Source: Leeuwenhoekiella blandensis MED217 (GTDB lineage Bacteria; Bacteroidota; Bacteroidia; Flavobacteriales; Flavobacteriaceae). From it: a stretch of 64,000 bases of DNA. Position 1 is the stretch's first letter; the number at the start of each line of letters is the position of its first letter. The position numbers and the translations under genes are program-made. Below the pieces are notes generated by a model. The model saw only the letters and a list, made by a program, of their open reading frames with translations, searched no databases and had not been told where the DNA came from. The DNA is taken from assembly GCF_000152985.1 (NCBI RefSeq), contig NZ_CH672395.1:1092567-1156566 (forward strand). Direction: 5' to 3'. Of the stretch, positions 37,899 to 45,281 are shown one piece after another.

Positions 37899-38666
37899 TT
37901 ATTTAAAGCAAACCGGTAAAATCTCGCCTTTTGCAAGTCGGTATTTATCAACTTCTGCAGCATCTAACTGCGCGGTATAATCGACCTCATGTACTTTGAA
38001 ACCGATAGTACGTAATTTATCAAAATAATCGCGACCGTAAATACGCACGTGATCGTATTGCCCAAAAATTGCTGCACGTTCGTTTCGGTCTGTGATACTG
38101 TTATCTTCAAAAGTATCTGCTCGCTGCAAATCCTGCGGAATTTGTAAAATAGCCATTCCGCCGGATTTTAGAATACGATAAAGCTCTTGCATTGCTTTTG
38201 TATCATCGGGAATATGTTCTAAGACGTGGTTACAGAAAATAACATCGTAAGAATCATCTTCGAATGGCAAGTCGCATATATCTGCTTTCACATCTGCCAG
38301 CGGCGAATTTAAGTCTGTAGTAGTGTAGTCGAGATTTTTCATGGCTCTGAAGCGCTTGTAAAAAGCTTGTTCCGGTGCGAAGTGCAACACTTTTCTAGGA
38401 GCTTTAAAAAAATCTGTTTCGTTCTTTAAATAGAGCCAGAGCAACCTGTGGCGCTCGAGAGAAAGCGTAGAAGGGGAGAGCACATTTTCGCGTTGATTCT
38501 CGTAACCATAAGGTAAAAACTTTTTAAAAGTCTTTCCGTCTATGGGGTCTTGATAGGTGTCTCCGCGCAAGCTAAGCGCCAGAAAAGGACGTGCAACATA
38601 GCTCAAACGGATTAAAAGCGGTCTGGGAACTAAATTTAGAACACGTTTAAAAAGCTGTGCAATCAT
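37899..38666 (-). CDS. Class I SAM-dependent methyltransferase, glycan/lipid-type
   Basis: The 255-residue protein has a methyltransferase_11-type core: FAPEQAFYKRFRAMKNLDYTTTDL (residues 76-99) instead of a classical GxGxG motif I, then DDSYDVIFCNHVLEHIPDD near 136 and the ILKSGGMAILQIP strand near 165. The N-terminus carries an extra basic helix (FKRVLNLVPRPLLIRLSYVARP) that could touch membranes. It overlaps the HNH gene by 4 bp (ATGA). The substrate is unknown. Confidence 0.82.
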   Translation of the reverse strand: MIAQLFKRVLNLVPRPLLIRLSYVARPFLALSLRGDTYQDPIDGKTFKKFLPYGYENQRENVLSPSTLSLERHRLLWLYLKNETDFFKAPRKVLHFAPEQAFYKRFRAMKNLDYTTTDLNSPLADVKADICDLPFEDDSYDVIFCNHVLEHIPDDTKAMQELYRILKSGGMAILQIPQDLQRADTFEDNSITDRNERAAIFGQYDHVRIYGRDYFDKLRTIGFKVHEVDYTAQLDAAEVDKYRLAKGEILPVCFK

Positions 38667-39202
38667 ACTTGAAGATCACCCCAGTTTTCACCGGTCTTGA
38701 TACGGTGCAATTGCATTTCAGAAACGCCAAACTGTTTTGCCAATACTTTTAAGCGTGTACGACGGTTAGGGTCTAGCAATTTTTTCTTGAGCACTTTAGC
38801 TTCAGCATAGCTTAATTTGGTGTAATGGCGTTCTCCCGAGGTACGACGTTTTATATCTAACGGACTTGTTTTTTGATGCGCATAGCGCTCTTTATGCGTT
38901 GCCCATTTTAGGTTGGTAATACGATTGTCTGTCTTGTCGTGATTGAGATGTAGAACAGCTTTTTCGTTCTCACCGGCTTTAAGAAATGCTTTTGCCAATA
39001 ATTTGTGCAGATAGAAGTTGCGACGTTTACCACCTGCGAGTTTAATGTTTACCGTGATGTAGCCGTTAATATGCCCACCTTTGATAATATTTCCTTTAGG
39101 GTTTTTATTGTAACTACGTACTTGACCGTAATTTGAAAGCCCAATTTTATAGCCTTCTTCCCAGTTTTCTTCACGGTAGTCGATCCAAGTTTCTAGCTGC
39201 AT
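38663..39202 (-). CDS. NUMOD4/HNH-type DNA-binding protein, homing-endonuclease-like
   Basis: The 179-residue protein shows a NUMOD4-like start (EEGYKIGLSNYGQVRSYNK near residues 15-33), then an HNH_3-type block (LHKLLAKAFL with H66, HLNHDKTDNRITNLKWAT with H85, H88 and N93). A C-terminal helix-turn-helix-like part follows (VLAKQFGVSEMQLHRIKTGENW near 153-174). This layout is that of group I intron or phage homing endonucleases, yet it lies without an intron in an operon: 20 bp after map, 4-bp overlap with the methyltransferase. Catalytic activity is not shown by sequence alone. Confidence 0.75.
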   Translation of the reverse strand: MQLETWIDYREENWEEGYKIGLSNYGQVRSYNKNPKGNIIKGGHINGYITVNIKLAGGKRRNFYLHKLLAKAFLKAGENEKAVLHLNHDKTDNRITNLKWATHKERYAHQKTSPLDIKRRTSGERHYTKLSYAEAKVLKKKLLDPNRRTRLKVLAKQFGVSEMQLHRIKTGENWGDLQV

Positions 39203-40164: not shown

Positions 40165-41571
40165 CTAAATATTATCTGGATTGGTAGCAAGCGTTTTGAA
40201 TAGCTTGGCTTTAGCCTTTTGTAATTTATAGGTAATCTCGATTTGTTTCAATTGTGAATCAATAAGCTTTAACTCGCGCGAATTGATCAAGAAAATTGAA
40301 CTTTCTCCCACCTGATATTTGCGCTCTTCTGCATTGAGCATCGTGGCGTAATTCACGACAAGTTCTTCAGCTACGATATTCTGCTCTTTAAGCGTGATGA
40401 GTTCTGTATTCACGGCTCTCACCTTGTTTTGCAATTCTAGTCTGGAGTTGGTTAATTCTAATTCAGAATCTTGAAGTTTAAGCTTCGCAAGTTGAAGATC
40501 TCCGCGTTCTTTCCGAAGGAATAAAGGCATTTTAAAGTGTAGCCCGGCTTTATAATTTTGGGTATAAAAGCTATCCAGATTATCAGGTTCTGAAGTGATA
40601 AAATTATAATTAACATCAATCACCGGAAGCAACTTATTTCCTTTCAAACGCTTTTCGATCTCGAGACCTTGTACTTTGTAGGCAAGCGAACGCATTTTAG
40701 GATGTTCTTCTATCTGAAAGTTTGCAATATCAAAGCCTGTGATTTTAAGGGTTTCATCAACTACGTATTGTAAATCTTCCTGCGGATAGACGGCTTCTTG
40801 CAGTTCTACAGGAATATTGTTACCCAGCCATAAGAAGTTGGCCAATTCTAGCTTTTTCTGAATGTATTCTAAGCGCACTTCTCTCAGGCTCAAATCCCTG
40901 CTCTGAACGCTTATTTTAGCTTCGGTAGTATCGATCAAAGGAATATCTCCTGCGAGCGCACTTCGCTTGATTCCTCTAAATCTAATGATTGAATTTTCTA
41001 AGGCACGCTCGTAGAGCAGTACTTTTTTATAAGCTTGAAGCCAGTCAAAATAAGCGATAGCAGCATTGTACAAAACCTGGTTTACCGCAAGGTCGAGATC
41101 TGCACGAGCTTGTTGCCGGTAAACCTTTGCCTGTTTAAGCGTAGCCATACGCTCATTAATCCATAAACCTTGTCCTAAAGATGCCGAAATTCCTGCGGTA
41201 TACAATCCGTTTTCAGGTACGGTTTTCTGCGGATTTAAATAATAGCCTTCATTTTCTTCAAACTGCGCTTTTAAGTCAATACCATACCAGGTTGGGACTT
41301 TAAAAGTAGCGTTGAGTAAATTGTAATATTCGGTCTCTTTAAAAACCTTTTGGTCAAAATCTACTTCTACTTTAGGATCAAACCCACCACGGGCTTTAAG
41401 CAGTTTTGCGTCCCCGGTTTCTAAGATAAGGTTTGCCTGCTTAGCCACCGGATGGTTTTGCTTTACCAAGCTTATATATTCTTCAAAGCTTAAGATTTGC
41501 AGTTCCTGATCTTGAGCAAAAAGCCCAGAACCGTAGAGGAGTAGTATGAGTAAAACTAGAGGCTTTCTCAT
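40165..41571 (-). CDS. TolC-family outer-membrane efflux protein
   Basis: This is the outer-membrane tunnel of the export operon. The 468-residue protein has a signal peptide (RKPLVLLILLLYGSGLFAQ) and two outer-membrane-efflux repeats rich in long helices (near residues 25-215 and 265-455). Typical elements are KQANLILETGDAKLLKARGGFDPKVEVDF near 41 and the GESSIFLINSRELKLIDSQLK segment near 420. It overlaps the HlyD gene by 4 bp. It should receive substrate from the HlyD-type adaptor and the ABC membrane protein. Confidence 0.9.
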   Translation of the reverse strand: MRKPLVLLILLLYGSGLFAQDQELQILSFEEYISLVKQNHPVAKQANLILETGDAKLLKARGGFDPKVEVDFDQKVFKETEYYNLLNATFKVPTWYGIDLKAQFEENEGYYLNPQKTVPENGLYTAGISASLGQGLWINERMATLKQAKVYRQQARADLDLAVNQVLYNAAIAYFDWLQAYKKVLLYERALENSIIRFRGIKRSALAGDIPLIDTTEAKISVQSRDLSLREVRLEYIQKKLELANFLWLGNNIPVELQEAVYPQEDLQYVVDETLKITGFDIANFQIEEHPKMRSLAYKVQGLEIEKRLKGNKLLPVIDVNYNFITSEPDNLDSFYTQNYKAGLHFKMPLFLRKERGDLQLAKLKLQDSELELTNSRLELQNKVRAVNTELITLKEQNIVAEELVVNYATMLNAEERKYQVGESSIFLINSRELKLIDSQLKQIEITYKLQKAKAKLFKTLATNPDNI

Positions 41572-42926
41572 TTCTTATCTTTTTCTTTTGAATCGTTAGA
41601 ATCACTAGGCGTGTAGTAATTTGGCGGGAAGCCATTCAGTTTTCGCCATAATTCATACCAGATAGGCACATCTTCAAGAAGTGCCAAGGTGCTCGCGCCG
41701 GCGCCTATACGTAAGGCTTCAGGCCAAGGTTGCTCATCAGGATCTGGTGCCAGAAGTACGCGGTATTTTCCGTTAGGACTAATGAAGCGTTCAATAGCGA
41801 CTACTTTACCTCCAAAAGTTCCGAAGGAATTATAAGGCCAACCGCTGAACACAATAGATGGCCAACCATCAAACTGAATACGTACTTTTTCGCCGTTATG
41901 AATTAGGGGTAAATCTATAGGCTTAACATAGGTTTCAACGGCGATGTCAAAGTCAGAAGGCATAATGCTTACCAGTTGTTGCCCTTCTTTAAACGTTTCT
42001 CCGATACCGCCTATGATAGCTTTGTTAATGTATCCACTTTGCGGTGCACGTACGTAATATAACGCGTTGCGTATTTCATAATTCGTTCTGGTGTTTTCTA
42101 ATTTGCTTACCGCTGCTTCAGTATCAAGTTGTGTAGAAAGGGCAGTAGCTTGATCACTTTGTGCTTTTGAAATTTTATCAGCATAGGTCGCTTCAAGACG
42201 ATTTAGCTCGATTTGAGCATTGAGCAGTTCGTTACGACTTGCAAGTAATTTATTCTCTTGAGAAATGATTTTTGCCTGAGCTTCCTGAAGTTTTAAGCGT
42301 TTTTCTTCAACATCGGTGACCGCTTTTAGACCTTCTTGTTGAAGACCTAACGTACGCTCATATTGACGTTCTGCAATACGAAGATTAGTTTTTGTAGCTT
42401 CAAAATCGATACTGTCGCTTTTGATTTTAAGTTCGGCCTGAATACGTTTATTTTCTGCTTGTTGCAGTTTTAGAACGCGTTCATTACGCAAGGCTTCAAT
42501 TTGATTTCCTAAAGCGTTTACTTTATTTCTGTACGATTCAACAGAACTTGCTTTTGCACGTACCTGTTGATCGGTTCGTTCGACAAGGTTTGGGTCAAAG
42601 TATTCATTTTTTACTTCAGTAATAAAGAGAATAGTGTCTCCTTTCTCTACAAAATCACCTTCACGTACATACCATTTTTCTATACGGCCGGGGATAGGAG
42701 ATTGTATGGTTTGCGGGCGTTGTTCTGGGGTTAGGGTGGTGACATAACCTATACCAGAGATCGTCTGCGTCCACGGTAGAAAAAGTACAATGATCAGAAT
42801 AATGCTGAATACCTTTAAAAAGCGGTTGAAGTAAGCATAATGCTTTTTCTCAAGGACTTTCTTTGATGCCTTGTAGCCCGAAATATCAACCTTTTCGTTT
42901 ATTTTATCTTGAGATATATTAAGCAT
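41568..42926 (-). CDS. HlyD-family periplasmic adaptor
   Basis: The 452-residue protein has an N-terminal cytoplasmic stretch, one membrane helix (about residues 37-55), and then a biotinyl-lipoyl module (SPIPGRIEKWYVREGDFVEKGDTILFI near 92-118). A long coiled coil follows (about 125-285) and then the second lipoyl half (YVRAPQSGYINKAI near 292). This is the membrane-fusion protein of type I-like secretion. It sits between the ABC (6 bp) and TolC (4-bp overlap) genes and should link them across the periplasm. Confidence 0.9.
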   Translation of the reverse strand: MLNISQDKINEKVDISGYKASKKVLEKKHYAYFNRFLKVFSIILIIVLFLPWTQTISGIGYVTTLTPEQRPQTIQSPIPGRIEKWYVREGDFVEKGDTILFITEVKNEYFDPNLVERTDQQVRAKASSVESYRNKVNALGNQIEALRNERVLKLQQAENKRIQAELKIKSDSIDFEATKTNLRIAERQYERTLGLQQEGLKAVTDVEEKRLKLQEAQAKIISQENKLLASRNELLNAQIELNRLEATYADKISKAQSDQATALSTQLDTEAAVSKLENTRTNYEIRNALYYVRAPQSGYINKAIIGGIGETFKEGQQLVSIMPSDFDIAVETYVKPIDLPLIHNGEKVRIQFDGWPSIVFSGWPYNSFGTFGGKVVAIERFISPNGKYRVLLAPDPDEQPWPEALRIGAGASTLALLEDVPIWYELWRKLNGFPPNYYTPSDSNDSKEKDKK

Positions 42927-42932
42927 AGGTTT

Positions 42933-44600
42933 CTAATTTGAAGTTGAAAGTTTACCGGAGTCAAGCCATAAGGTTCTCTCGCAGCAATTTTGCCATGCCT
43001 TGTCTTTACTGGCAACAATGATGGCCCACGGATTTGACTTATCAAATAAAAAGTTTACAATGCGTTCTTTTTCTTCTGTCGAAAACTTTGTGAGTGGTTC
43101 TTTGAGAATAAGCAGTTTAGGTTTGCGCACGATACTACGCGCCATCACGATTTTATCTGCAATCGTTTTTGATAAACGCTGTCCTTCTGGCTTGATCAAG
43201 GTGTTGAGTCCGTTGGGTTGATCTTTTACAAAATCAGCAAGGCCCATTTTTTCAACCGCCCAGTCGATGTTTTTCTGAGGAACCGTTTTATCACCAAACG
43301 TGATATTGTCGAGAATGGTGCCTTCAAAAGGAGTTTCTTCAGGAAAAGATTGCCCAAGTAATGCCCGGTAATGATTCAACTGAATACCTTTAACCGATTT
43401 GTTGTTGATAAAGAATTCCCCGCTAGTTGGTTCTAAAATTCCTGCGATGATCTTAAGCAGTGTAGACTTGCCAGATCCGTTAGGGCCATTTACAAGCACG
43501 TGATCTCCTGGATTGATTTTAAGAGAGACTTTGTCGAGTATGGTGACTTCATCGGCGTGATCTTCATAGCTTACATTGCGCAGTTCTAAGTGAAGATTAT
43601 CTTCTGCTTCAAAGGGTTTAGAAAGTTCCTGGTCTTCCAGTTTCTTATCTACGACCTGTCCCACCTTTTCCAACGCGGTAAGCAAGTCATAAAAATTCTC
43701 TAATCCTAAGATGAGCTTTTCTACAGAACCTATGATAAGAACGATAATGATCTCTGCAGCCACAAATTGACCAATGTTCATCTGTTGATTGAGTACCAGA
43801 ATTCCACCTATAAGCAAAAGACCTGCGGTTACCAAAACCTTAAACGCGATCATTTGTATAAACTGAATGCGTAAAATTCTAAAGTGACTTTCACGCGAGT
43901 CTACATAATCACTTACCAAAGCATCGTTTTTATCTAATGCCAGACTCGATCTTCCTGAAAGTTTAAAGCTTACCAGAGCACGCGCGATTTCTTGAATCCA
44001 ATGCGCGATTTTGTATTTATATTTTGATTCATTCAAGCTCGTTTGCAAACCGGTATTTCCTGTGAATTTAAATACCAGATAAATAAGCAAAATGAGTAAG
44101 ATTCCGTAGAAAATAAAAAACGGATGATAAAAGGAAAGCAGAATAAGACCAAAGATGATCTGTACCAAAGCCGCCGGAAAATCAAGTACCAGTTTATACA
44201 AACTTTTCTGAATCGTAAGAATATCAAAAAAGCGATTGGCCAATTCCGGAGGATAATAATCTTTGAGTTCGCTCATTTTAATTTTAGGAAATCTATAGGT
44301 GAACTCAAAAGAAGCGCGTGTAAAGATCTTCTGCTGAATGTTTTCAAGTATGCGTATTTGCATCAATTGTAGTGCGCCAACAAAAGCAACGCCAAGGGTA
44401 ACCAAAATCACAAGAATGATCCACGACGTGGTGATTTGTGCACCTTGGATAAGATTTACAATAGCCTGAATCCCTAACGGAAGCGAGAGACTCACAATTC
44501 CCGCAAATATGGCGTAATAGAGAATCTGCAAAAAATCTTGCTTCTCTAATTTTAAAAGCCGTACAAAACGTTGCCAGGGCGTTAATGTTTTAGAATCCAT
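42933..44600 (-). CDS. ABC transporter with fused membrane and ATPase domains, degenerate ATPase motifs
   Basis: The 555-residue protein has an ABC exporter membrane part (about residues 20-310, six helices) and a C-terminal nucleotide-binding domain without an N-terminal peptidase. Walker A is intact (GPNGSGKST, 372-380) and a Q-loop Gln is at 417. The signature LSGGQ is replaced by LSKTI (476-480). The Walker B Asp is K500 (LLILKEP, E501 kept), and the H-loop His is missing (IVASKDK near 528-534). The domain may therefore bind but hardly hydrolyse ATP, or be driven otherwise. It is second in tetR-ABC-hlyD-tolC. Substrate unknown. Confidence 0.85.
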   Translation of the reverse strand: MDSKTLTPWQRFVRLLKLEKQDFLQILYYAIFAGIVSLSLPLGIQAIVNLIQGAQITTSWIILVILVTLGVAFVGALQLMQIRILENIQQKIFTRASFEFTYRFPKIKMSELKDYYPPELANRFFDILTIQKSLYKLVLDFPAALVQIIFGLILLSFYHPFFIFYGILLILLIYLVFKFTGNTGLQTSLNESKYKYKIAHWIQEIARALVSFKLSGRSSLALDKNDALVSDYVDSRESHFRILRIQFIQMIAFKVLVTAGLLLIGGILVLNQQMNIGQFVAAEIIIVLIIGSVEKLILGLENFYDLLTALEKVGQVVDKKLEDQELSKPFEAEDNLHLELRNVSYEDHADEVTILDKVSLKINPGDHVLVNGPNGSGKSTLLKIIAGILEPTSGEFFINNKSVKGIQLNHYRALLGQSFPEETPFEGTILDNITFGDKTVPQKNIDWAVEKMGLADFVKDQPNGLNTLIKPEGQRLSKTIADKIVMARSIVRKPKLLILKEPLTKFSTEEKERIVNFLFDKSNPWAIIVASKDKAWQNCCERTLWLDSGKLSTSN

Positions 44601-44606
44601 ATATAA

Positions 44607-45281
44607 TTAGGAGTTTAATAAGTTTGAAGTGAGGTGTATAAAATACTGTGAAGGTGAAGTCTTTTTACTACAATCGGTCAACGAGGTAAAATGATCTTTC
44701 AAAAAGTGTTGGTGCAAAGATCCTGCGAGAATAGTGCTGGCCAAACTTGCAGGATACGGATAGCCCTCATTCACATCGGCAATCATTTCTTTTAAGCGTG
44801 TGGTGAGCCGTTTATAAATCACAAAATATCCCTCTTTATTTTCATCGTCAACTTCTTTAGTCAAATAGGATTTAGAGTACTCGTTAATCACGATTTTGTT
44901 TAACGCCACCTCATTAATATGATTGAACGAATGATCTTCTTCTACTTCGCGCGTTAATATTTCTATCGCTTGTTCTAATTTTTCTTTAGGATCGTGGATG
45001 TTTGCAGTTGCAAAAGCCAGTTGGTATTCTTTCCAGCCCCAATACCAATTGGTTAAGTAGATCAAAAATTTATGCTTATTCTCAAAATACCGGTATACAG
45101 AACTCTCGTTAGATTCTATACGCTCTCCGAGTTTTTTAAAAGTGAAATTATCAAAGCCTAAATCATTGATGAGTAGAATGCCATGTTCTACGATGCGTCT
45201 TCCTAACGAGGAAGATTCCGGGTCTTTTAAATAGACGTTGTCATTGATAGTGATCTTCAAGTTACGAAGTAACTCATCCAT
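44607..45281 (-). CDS. TetR-family regulator of the export operon
   Basis: The 224-residue product has an N-terminal helix-turn-helix (about residues 25-75: IVEHGILLINDLGFDNFTFKKLG then ESNESSVYRYFENKHKFL), the usual TetR fold. The C-terminal ligand and dimer domain is not similar to anything I recognise. It is first of the operon, 6 bp before the ABC gene. Two palindromes at 45305-45323 and 45351-45364 lie just upstream and are good operator candidates, so autorepression of the whole operon is likely. The inducer is unknown. Confidence 0.85.
   Translation of the reverse strand: MDELLRNLKITINDNVYLKDPESSSLGRRIVEHGILLINDLGFDNFTFKKLGERIESNESSVYRYFENKHKFLIYLTNWYWGWKEYQLAFATANIHDPKEKLEQAIEILTREVEEDHSFNHINEVALNKIVINEYSKSYLTKEVDDENKEGYFVIYKRLTTRLKEMIADVNEGYPYPASLASTILAGSLHQHFLKDHFTSLTDCSKKTSPSQYFIHLTSNLLNS

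Follow-up and report, generated by a model that had tools for sequence, protein, structure and literature searches.

A degenerate HlyB-like ABC exporter of Leeuwenhoekiella blandensis as the possible inner-membrane part of an ion-gradient-driven tripartite exporter

We analysed a window of 64,000 nucleotides from Leeuwenhoekiella blandensis MED217 (contig NZ_CH672395.1, positions 1,092,567 to 1,156,566; coordinates below count from its first letter) and find an HlyB-like exporter gene with a degenerate nucleotide-binding domain (NBD). Judging from sequence comparison and predicted structure, its product would be, with a probability of about 0.58, the inner-membrane part of a tripartite exporter of HlyB/LssB-type descent that has abandoned its ATPase and exports by means of an ion gradient. 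ATP hydrolysis is unlikely to be its driver, given the loss of catalytic motifs, the existence of related lineages lacking the NBD and a selective constraint that is reversed between the two domains.

The window exporter and its operon

Four nearly touching genes on the minus strand, in the order TetR, exporter, HlyD and TolC, form a putative operon. The first is an open reading frame for a TetR-family regulator (44607..45281; PF00440 at 24.5 bits, cut-off 24) and the next the exporter of 555 aa (42933..44600), which passes the Pfam cut-offs for both ABC_membrane (PF00664, 30.3 bits; cut-off 28) and ABC_tran (PF00005, 77.3 bits; cut-off 25). Directly downstream, and thus next to the exporter as the original prediction had it, open reading frames with profile matches encode an HlyD-family periplasmic adaptor (41568..42926, 452 aa) and a TolC-family outer-membrane channel (40165..41571, 468 aa).

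Residues 1–325 of the exporter make up the transmembrane domain (TMD; 43626..44600, minus strand), the part retained by NBD-less relatives, and residues 335–555 the degenerate NBD (42936..43598, minus strand), which is still predicted to fold in an AF2 model of mean pLDDT 85.2. In structure comparison this model comes closest to HlyB as found in the HlyB/D complex (8dck_B; Z 29.4, rmsd 2.7, 547 residues), effectively tied with TmrAB (Z 29.3) and PCAT1 (Z 28.7). By model, structure match and Pfam, the protein has the exporter (type IV) TMD and NBD fold; its best NCBIfam match is LssB (TIGR03375), at 179.8 bits, where the subfamily cut-off of 693.1 is not reached.

The motif changes that had been read from the sequence at the outset were all confirmed from the DNA and its translation. 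Walker A, GPNGSGKST (residues 372–380, Lys at K378; 43461..43487, minus strand), is intact. K500 (AAA at 43101–43103) replaces the Walker B Asp in LLILKEP (496–502; 43095..43115, minus strand) and is followed directly by an intact E501 (codon GAA). LSKTI (476–480; 43161..43175, minus strand) replaces LSGGQ, S531 (43008..43010, minus strand) stands at the H-loop His position in a segment reading IIVASKD, and the D-loop is likewise non-canonical (LTKF). Missing from the protein are the type I exporter hallmarks LSGGQ and the complete set of Walker B Asp, catalytic Glu and His (here K500, E501 and S531). Four other fused exporters of the same genome (PF00664) keep Walker A, LS-x-GQ, D(E/D) and the H-loop His, and comparison with these and with the 80 relatives described below argues that the motif loss is more than chance.

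In a composite ATP site one chain contributes Walker A, Walker B and the H-loop, and its partner the signature. Excerpts of PMC7756269 describe the sites as composite. On its sequence, a homodimer of the window protein would contain no complete ATP site; since one chain lacks both Walker B/His and the signature, pairing with a normal partner would still leave both composite sites short. A second NBD gene was sought in the genome, as had been proposed, and the four other fused exporters were found, none of them adjoining HlyD or TolC.

Spread of the family and graded motif loss

Scanning 84,980 species gave 122 relatives, 80 of which were kept (41–94% identity). All 80 are labelled as Bacteroidota except L056, a Thalassovita MAG (Pseudomonadota) that groups with Bacteroidota members and whose contig is probably misbinned. 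None of the 80 has LSGGQ or the H-loop His, and 74 lack the Walker B Asp, which six retain (L068, L069, L071, L073, L074 and L076). The losses are thus common to the Bacteroidota relatives compared and not confined to this strain, so that the refuting case named with the original prediction did not arise. The gene neighbourhood is also widely kept. Of the 80 loci, 77 extend more than 1.4 kb downstream, and 71 have HlyD on the same strand no more than 500 bp from the exporter gene; TolC occurs in 64 of the 67 loci long enough to show it. On the upstream side, where 77 relatives have sufficient sequence, a TetR gene is found in 56 at a distance of up to 600 bp. Profile searches detected the family in 99 of 392 genomes across the phylum (threshold E 1e-70) and in 193 of 395 across the class (threshold E 1e-60).

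For further comparison we pooled all fetched loci after removing identical TMDs, a set of 190 family members scoring at least 204 bits with a TMD profile and comprising part of the matches of the phylum and class scans. A clean gap separates them from the comparison set, 11 ordinary exporters from a search with the LssB model that score 25–39 bits with the same profile (those below 20 bits were dropped). The 190 consist of 171 members with an NBD, nine TMD-only proteins, eight TMD-HlyD fusions and two that were dropped: L227 (G602), first taken as TMD-only, is a gene cut by the contig end, and L254 likewise.

Among the 171 NBD-bearing members none has LSGGQ and one (L165) has LSxGQ. Walker A of the form G4GK(S/T) occurs in 146, and 11 have none by pattern. 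The Walker B Asp is found in 31, the catalytic Glu in 43 and the two together in 12; the commonest letters at these positions are E for the Asp (98/171) and D for the Glu (89/171). A His lies in the H-loop window in 13. Walker A, Asp-Glu and His coincide in seven members (L157–L162 and L165), here called ATPase-like, all of them outside the class of the window organism. This gradation suggests that the ATPase machinery of the family was lost step by step. As the signature is imperfect in all 171, the impairment may date back to the ancestor itself.

Many members, for example L056, L062, L064, L065, L079 and L157–L164, carry an N-terminal extension of about 130–255 aa, for which the two examined (L062 and L158) gave no Pfam match. 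No common cargo emerged from six proteins of neighbouring genes at five deep-branch loci (two UvrA, FtsK, OmpA, a cyclase and one without a match).

Relatives without a nucleotide-binding domain

The class scan found at least nine genomes (G355, G719, G349, G080, G166, G249, G261, G698 and G682) with a TMD match in stop-to-stop frames of 334–361 aa. Counted from the start codon, the TMD-only proteins of nine loci (L146–L151, L203/L226, L228 and L229) are 332–339 aa long, and in all nine the family HlyD and TolC follow. The stop of the TMD-only gene overlaps the HlyD start codon in seven (L148–L151, L226, L228 and L229), and in the other two HlyD starts about 66 (L146) and about 34 (L147) bases past it; as sequenced, these loci have no room for an NBD between the TMD-only gene and HlyD. 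One neighbour of L146, at the edge of the locus, gives a short match resembling an NBD.

In 10 of 395 genomes TMD and HlyD share one frame of 747–784 aa. TolC comes next in all eight fusions examined (L256, L257, L260, L261 and L263–L266) and TetR lies alongside in seven. An AF2 prediction of a TMD-HlyD fusion, with a mean pLDDT of 58.7, supports no claim. One genus (code g214) contains both a full-length member without Walker A (L239, G610) and TMD-HlyD fusions (L263/L274 in G714, and G683), a mixture that suggests replacement or transfer.

A split NBD gene was considered and rejected as far as the stronger, listed matches of the family NBD profile in 17 NBD-less genomes and three controls go: assessed on bit score and frame length alone, none of them qualifies. 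Long frames (mostly 580–850 aa) of the NBD-less genomes reach at most 186 bits and short frames at most 111 bits, and the family NBDs of the three control genomes score 196–312 bits. Nor was an NBD-bearing family gene seen beside the NBD-less operons at the loci examined.

Phylogeny

A tree was built from 51 TMDs, leaving out the ordinary exporters and five long rows (L165, L248, L253, L255 and L258). It was rooted on the ATPase-like clade, ordinary exporters being too distant to serve as outgroup (branch 4.92), and the direction of change depends on this root. TMD-only members form one clade (100/99) inside a clade with the degenerate full-length L153 (100/98); the fusions form another (100/100), joined to other degenerate members (90/91). 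Forcing TMD-only members and fusions together is rejected (p-AU 8.7e-5), for a grouping that was composed after the first tree was known. On this tree the NBD was lost twice, separately, inside the degenerate family, by truncation and by fusion to HlyD, and the loss of Walker A needs four changes.

Conserved residues and selective constraint

Several charged TMD residues set the family apart. E283 (43752..43754, minus strand), in the last TMD helix (276–317 in the model, taken as TM6), is invariant in all 183 aligned members together with K132 and K195, and all of them carry an acid (Glu or Asp) at position 86. None of the 11 ordinary exporters has an acid at 283 or 86, or a Lys at 132 or 195. 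E283 is thus a candidate coupling residue. It is found with its companions in the seven ATPase-like members too, which indicates that these hallmarks are older than the ATPase loss and do not mark a switch to ion coupling. Likewise YddA, a relative of SbmA, has part of the glutamate ladder according to excerpts of PMC13316013.

The first coupling-helix region is kept in TMD-only members (E119, N122, R123, F124 and F125 in 9/9), so a cytoplasmic partner is possible for these proteins. Fusions are without part of the coupling motif (P118, E119, L120 and R123) and have lost H159 in all eight cases and E191 in seven.

The two domains differ in constraint. Across 10,822 pairs of degenerate members, the share in which the NBD is more alike than the TMD amounts to 0.03 at 20–35% TMD identity and 0.00 in every other band. 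For ordinary exporters, the NBD is more alike in all 45 pairs below 55% TMD identity, whereas seven closer pairs differ (0 of 1 at 65–80% and a share of 0.17 of 6 at 80–96%). The seven ATPase-like members are intermediate, with shares of 0.60 and 0.50 below 45% and 0.00 above. By these comparisons the family constrains its TMD more than its NBD, the opposite of ordinary exporters below 55% TMD identity.

At short distances both domains appear to be under purifying selection. Most Leeuwenhoekiella pairs have dS above 1, and we therefore quote two pairs of low dS. L003–L004, the least saturated (dS 0.14–0.23), gives dN/dS of 0.024 for the TMD, 0.047 for the NBD, 0.021 for HlyD and 0.070 for the control MAP; L002–L003 (dS 0.57–1.20) gives 0.021, 0.026, 0.029 and 0.020, respectively. 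For pairs of TMD-only and fused members dS was saturated or not computable. The low values imply that the NBD is still under selection, although it changes faster than the TMD in distant pairs. Together with the presence of Walker A in 146 of 171 members, this selection means that nucleotide probably still matters in most of the family.

Energy source and alternative explanations

Two lineages do without the NBD, which leaves TMD, HlyD and TolC as the core common to all. Two precedents show what an exporter-type TMD can do alone: SbmA, without an NBD, can use protons (excerpts of PMC13316013), and MsbA without its NBD continues to efflux ethidium when a pH gradient is present (excerpts of PMC4979069). 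The shared core and these precedents favour an ion-gradient-driven tripartite exporter. Among the options originally put forward, an exporter that would run on another energy source now fits best, as an inference. A dimer with another NBD is disfavoured by the composite-site rule, the want of an HlyD/TolC-linked partner among the fused exporters of the genome and the relatives that have no NBD.

The mechanism that we propose would start from an ATP-driven exporter of the HlyB/LssB type whose ATPase was abandoned. The window NBD would no longer hydrolyse ATP; in most members the retained Walker A would bind nucleotide and the NBD would act as a structural or regulatory clamp. An ion gradient would power export through charged TMD residues (E283 and E294/K295; K132 and K195), HlyD and TolC would take the cargo through the periplasm and outer membrane, and the adjacent TetR regulator would exert control. 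From that regulator we guess that the cargo is a small or lipophilic compound.

Several other explanations must be weighed against ion-gradient-driven export. The TMD might be a non-transporting scaffold, an anchor or gate joining HlyD and TolC, with passage that is passive or driven elsewhere. Its fusion to HlyD and the loss of all ATPase parts fit such a structural role, but several near-invariant charged TMD residues are more than an anchor seems to require, and we regard this explanation as rather unlikely. Somewhat less probable is an ATP-binding switch, in which members with Walker A would set their conformation by binding without hydrolysis and take their energy from elsewhere. Walker A in 146 of 171 members, the low dN/dS of the NBD and the stable holding of ATP at degenerate sites of other exporters (excerpts of PMC7756269) speak for it. 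However, 11 members have no Walker A by pattern and nine TMD-only proteins and eight fusions have no NBD at all, so that in their lineages such a switch is not essential to the core mechanism.

MsiK is an example of a shared ATPase acting in trans. A separate ATPase of this kind working on the TMD would suit the coupling-helix region retained in TMD-only members and the 10–38 NBD-profile matches that each of the 17 NBD-less genomes contains. It is nevertheless very unlikely: beside the NBD-less operons no NBD-bearing family gene was seen, the matches listed for those genomes stay below the scores of true family NBDs, and the fusions have given up part of the coupling motif. That the window protein is an unusual working ATPase relying on other residues is more improbable again; E501 and Walker A are present, but signature, Asp and His are lost together and relatives have deleted the whole domain. 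Simple gene decay would account for the lost catalytic residues and was one of the original options. We reject it as next to impossible, because the losses are common to 80 relatives, the operon is kept and dN/dS is low; the argument already drawn from the intact frame and operon has held up with this added evidence.

Relation to known systems

By descent the family is a variant of the type I secretion exporters (HlyB, LssB/TIGR03375, PrtD and PCAT1), with which it shares the fold, the best NCBIfam match (LssB) and the order exporter, HlyD, TolC. It departs from them in the family-wide loss of catalytic motifs, in missing the LssB cut-off and in two lineages where the NBD is absent or replaced by HlyD.

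A parallel in energy source would be SbmA/BacA (SLiPT), which, in excerpts of PMC13316013, descend from full-length ABC transporters, have lost the NBD and conserve membrane glutamates. Common to both are the exporter-type TMD and, in our TMD-only and fused relatives, the lost NBD (the window protein retains its own). SLiPTs are described in the same excerpts as peptide importers that have lost the coupling helices and added a TM0; here, by contrast, HlyD and TolC are the partners, and TMD-only members retain the coupling-helix region, of which fusions lack some residues. When scanned with Pfam, neither the window protein nor TMD-only L150 had an SbmA family among the matches listed, which did include ABC_membrane. 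SbmA is not among the best 50 structure matches listed, which says nothing against it. The NBD-less MsbA and LmrA, whose TMD alone is capable of proton-coupled efflux, are experimental truncations (excerpts of PMC4979069), whereas truncation and fusion are natural and conserved here. Exporters with one degenerate site (TAP, BmrCD, TM287/288 and TmrAB) resemble the family in missing catalytic Glu/His or signature residues; they keep one intact composite site (excerpts of PMC7756269), whereas a single chain of the window protein lacks Walker B/His as well as the signature.

MFS tripartite pumps of the EmrAB-TolC type join an ion-gradient-driven inner-membrane part to an HlyD-like adaptor and TolC. 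They have the MFS fold there and the family the ABC-exporter fold here. No description of the present family was found in the open-licence PMC literature, and the terms 'Bacteroidetes', 'without ATPase' and 'lacking NBD' are absent from the first 300,000 characters of PMC8277102, an extensive review of tripartite and type I systems.

It is the ATPase that defines ABC transporters. It is conceivable, at a little under even odds, that the family is a tripartite exporter new in kind: an ABC-exporter fold turned secondary and ion-gradient-driven, working with HlyD and TolC. After SbmA it would be the second such conversion known in nature, and the first within an export conduit. All stages of ATPase loss would then be extant, from weak signature through dead NBD and no Walker A to TMD alone or TMD-HlyD fusion. 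Tripartite exporters would gain a new class if ion coupling were shown. The graded losses, the two full NBD deletions and the TMD-HlyD fusion would offer a direct test of the conversion of a primary into a secondary pump, and the family would show which residues take over coupling and what HlyD-TolC conduits require of their inner-membrane part. Surveys of type I secretion systems (T1SS) use ABC, MFP and OMF profiles (excerpts of PMC4793230) and may count such loci as ATP-driven secretion systems.

Other features of the loci

Between exporter and HlyD, two Saprospiraceae loci (L051 and L052; 6.7–9.8 kb) have a pyruvate kinase-like large gene and a small beta-barrel-like gene, and L063 the small gene only (all by eye). 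The TolC reading frame is in two ORFs in L009 (8013–9413; Christiangramia echinicola) and L232 (153–1555), and genome G049 holds two full-length family copies. In the window, a 179-aa ORF resembling by eye a NUMOD4/HNH-type endonuclease (38663–39202, minus strand) is flanked by a methyltransferase-like gene and the gene for methionine aminopeptidase. A ChaN-like haem-binding gene (PF04187; 45410–46330, minus strand) lies upstream of TetR and is found at the same place in seven of eight other Leeuwenhoekiella loci (L002–L008).
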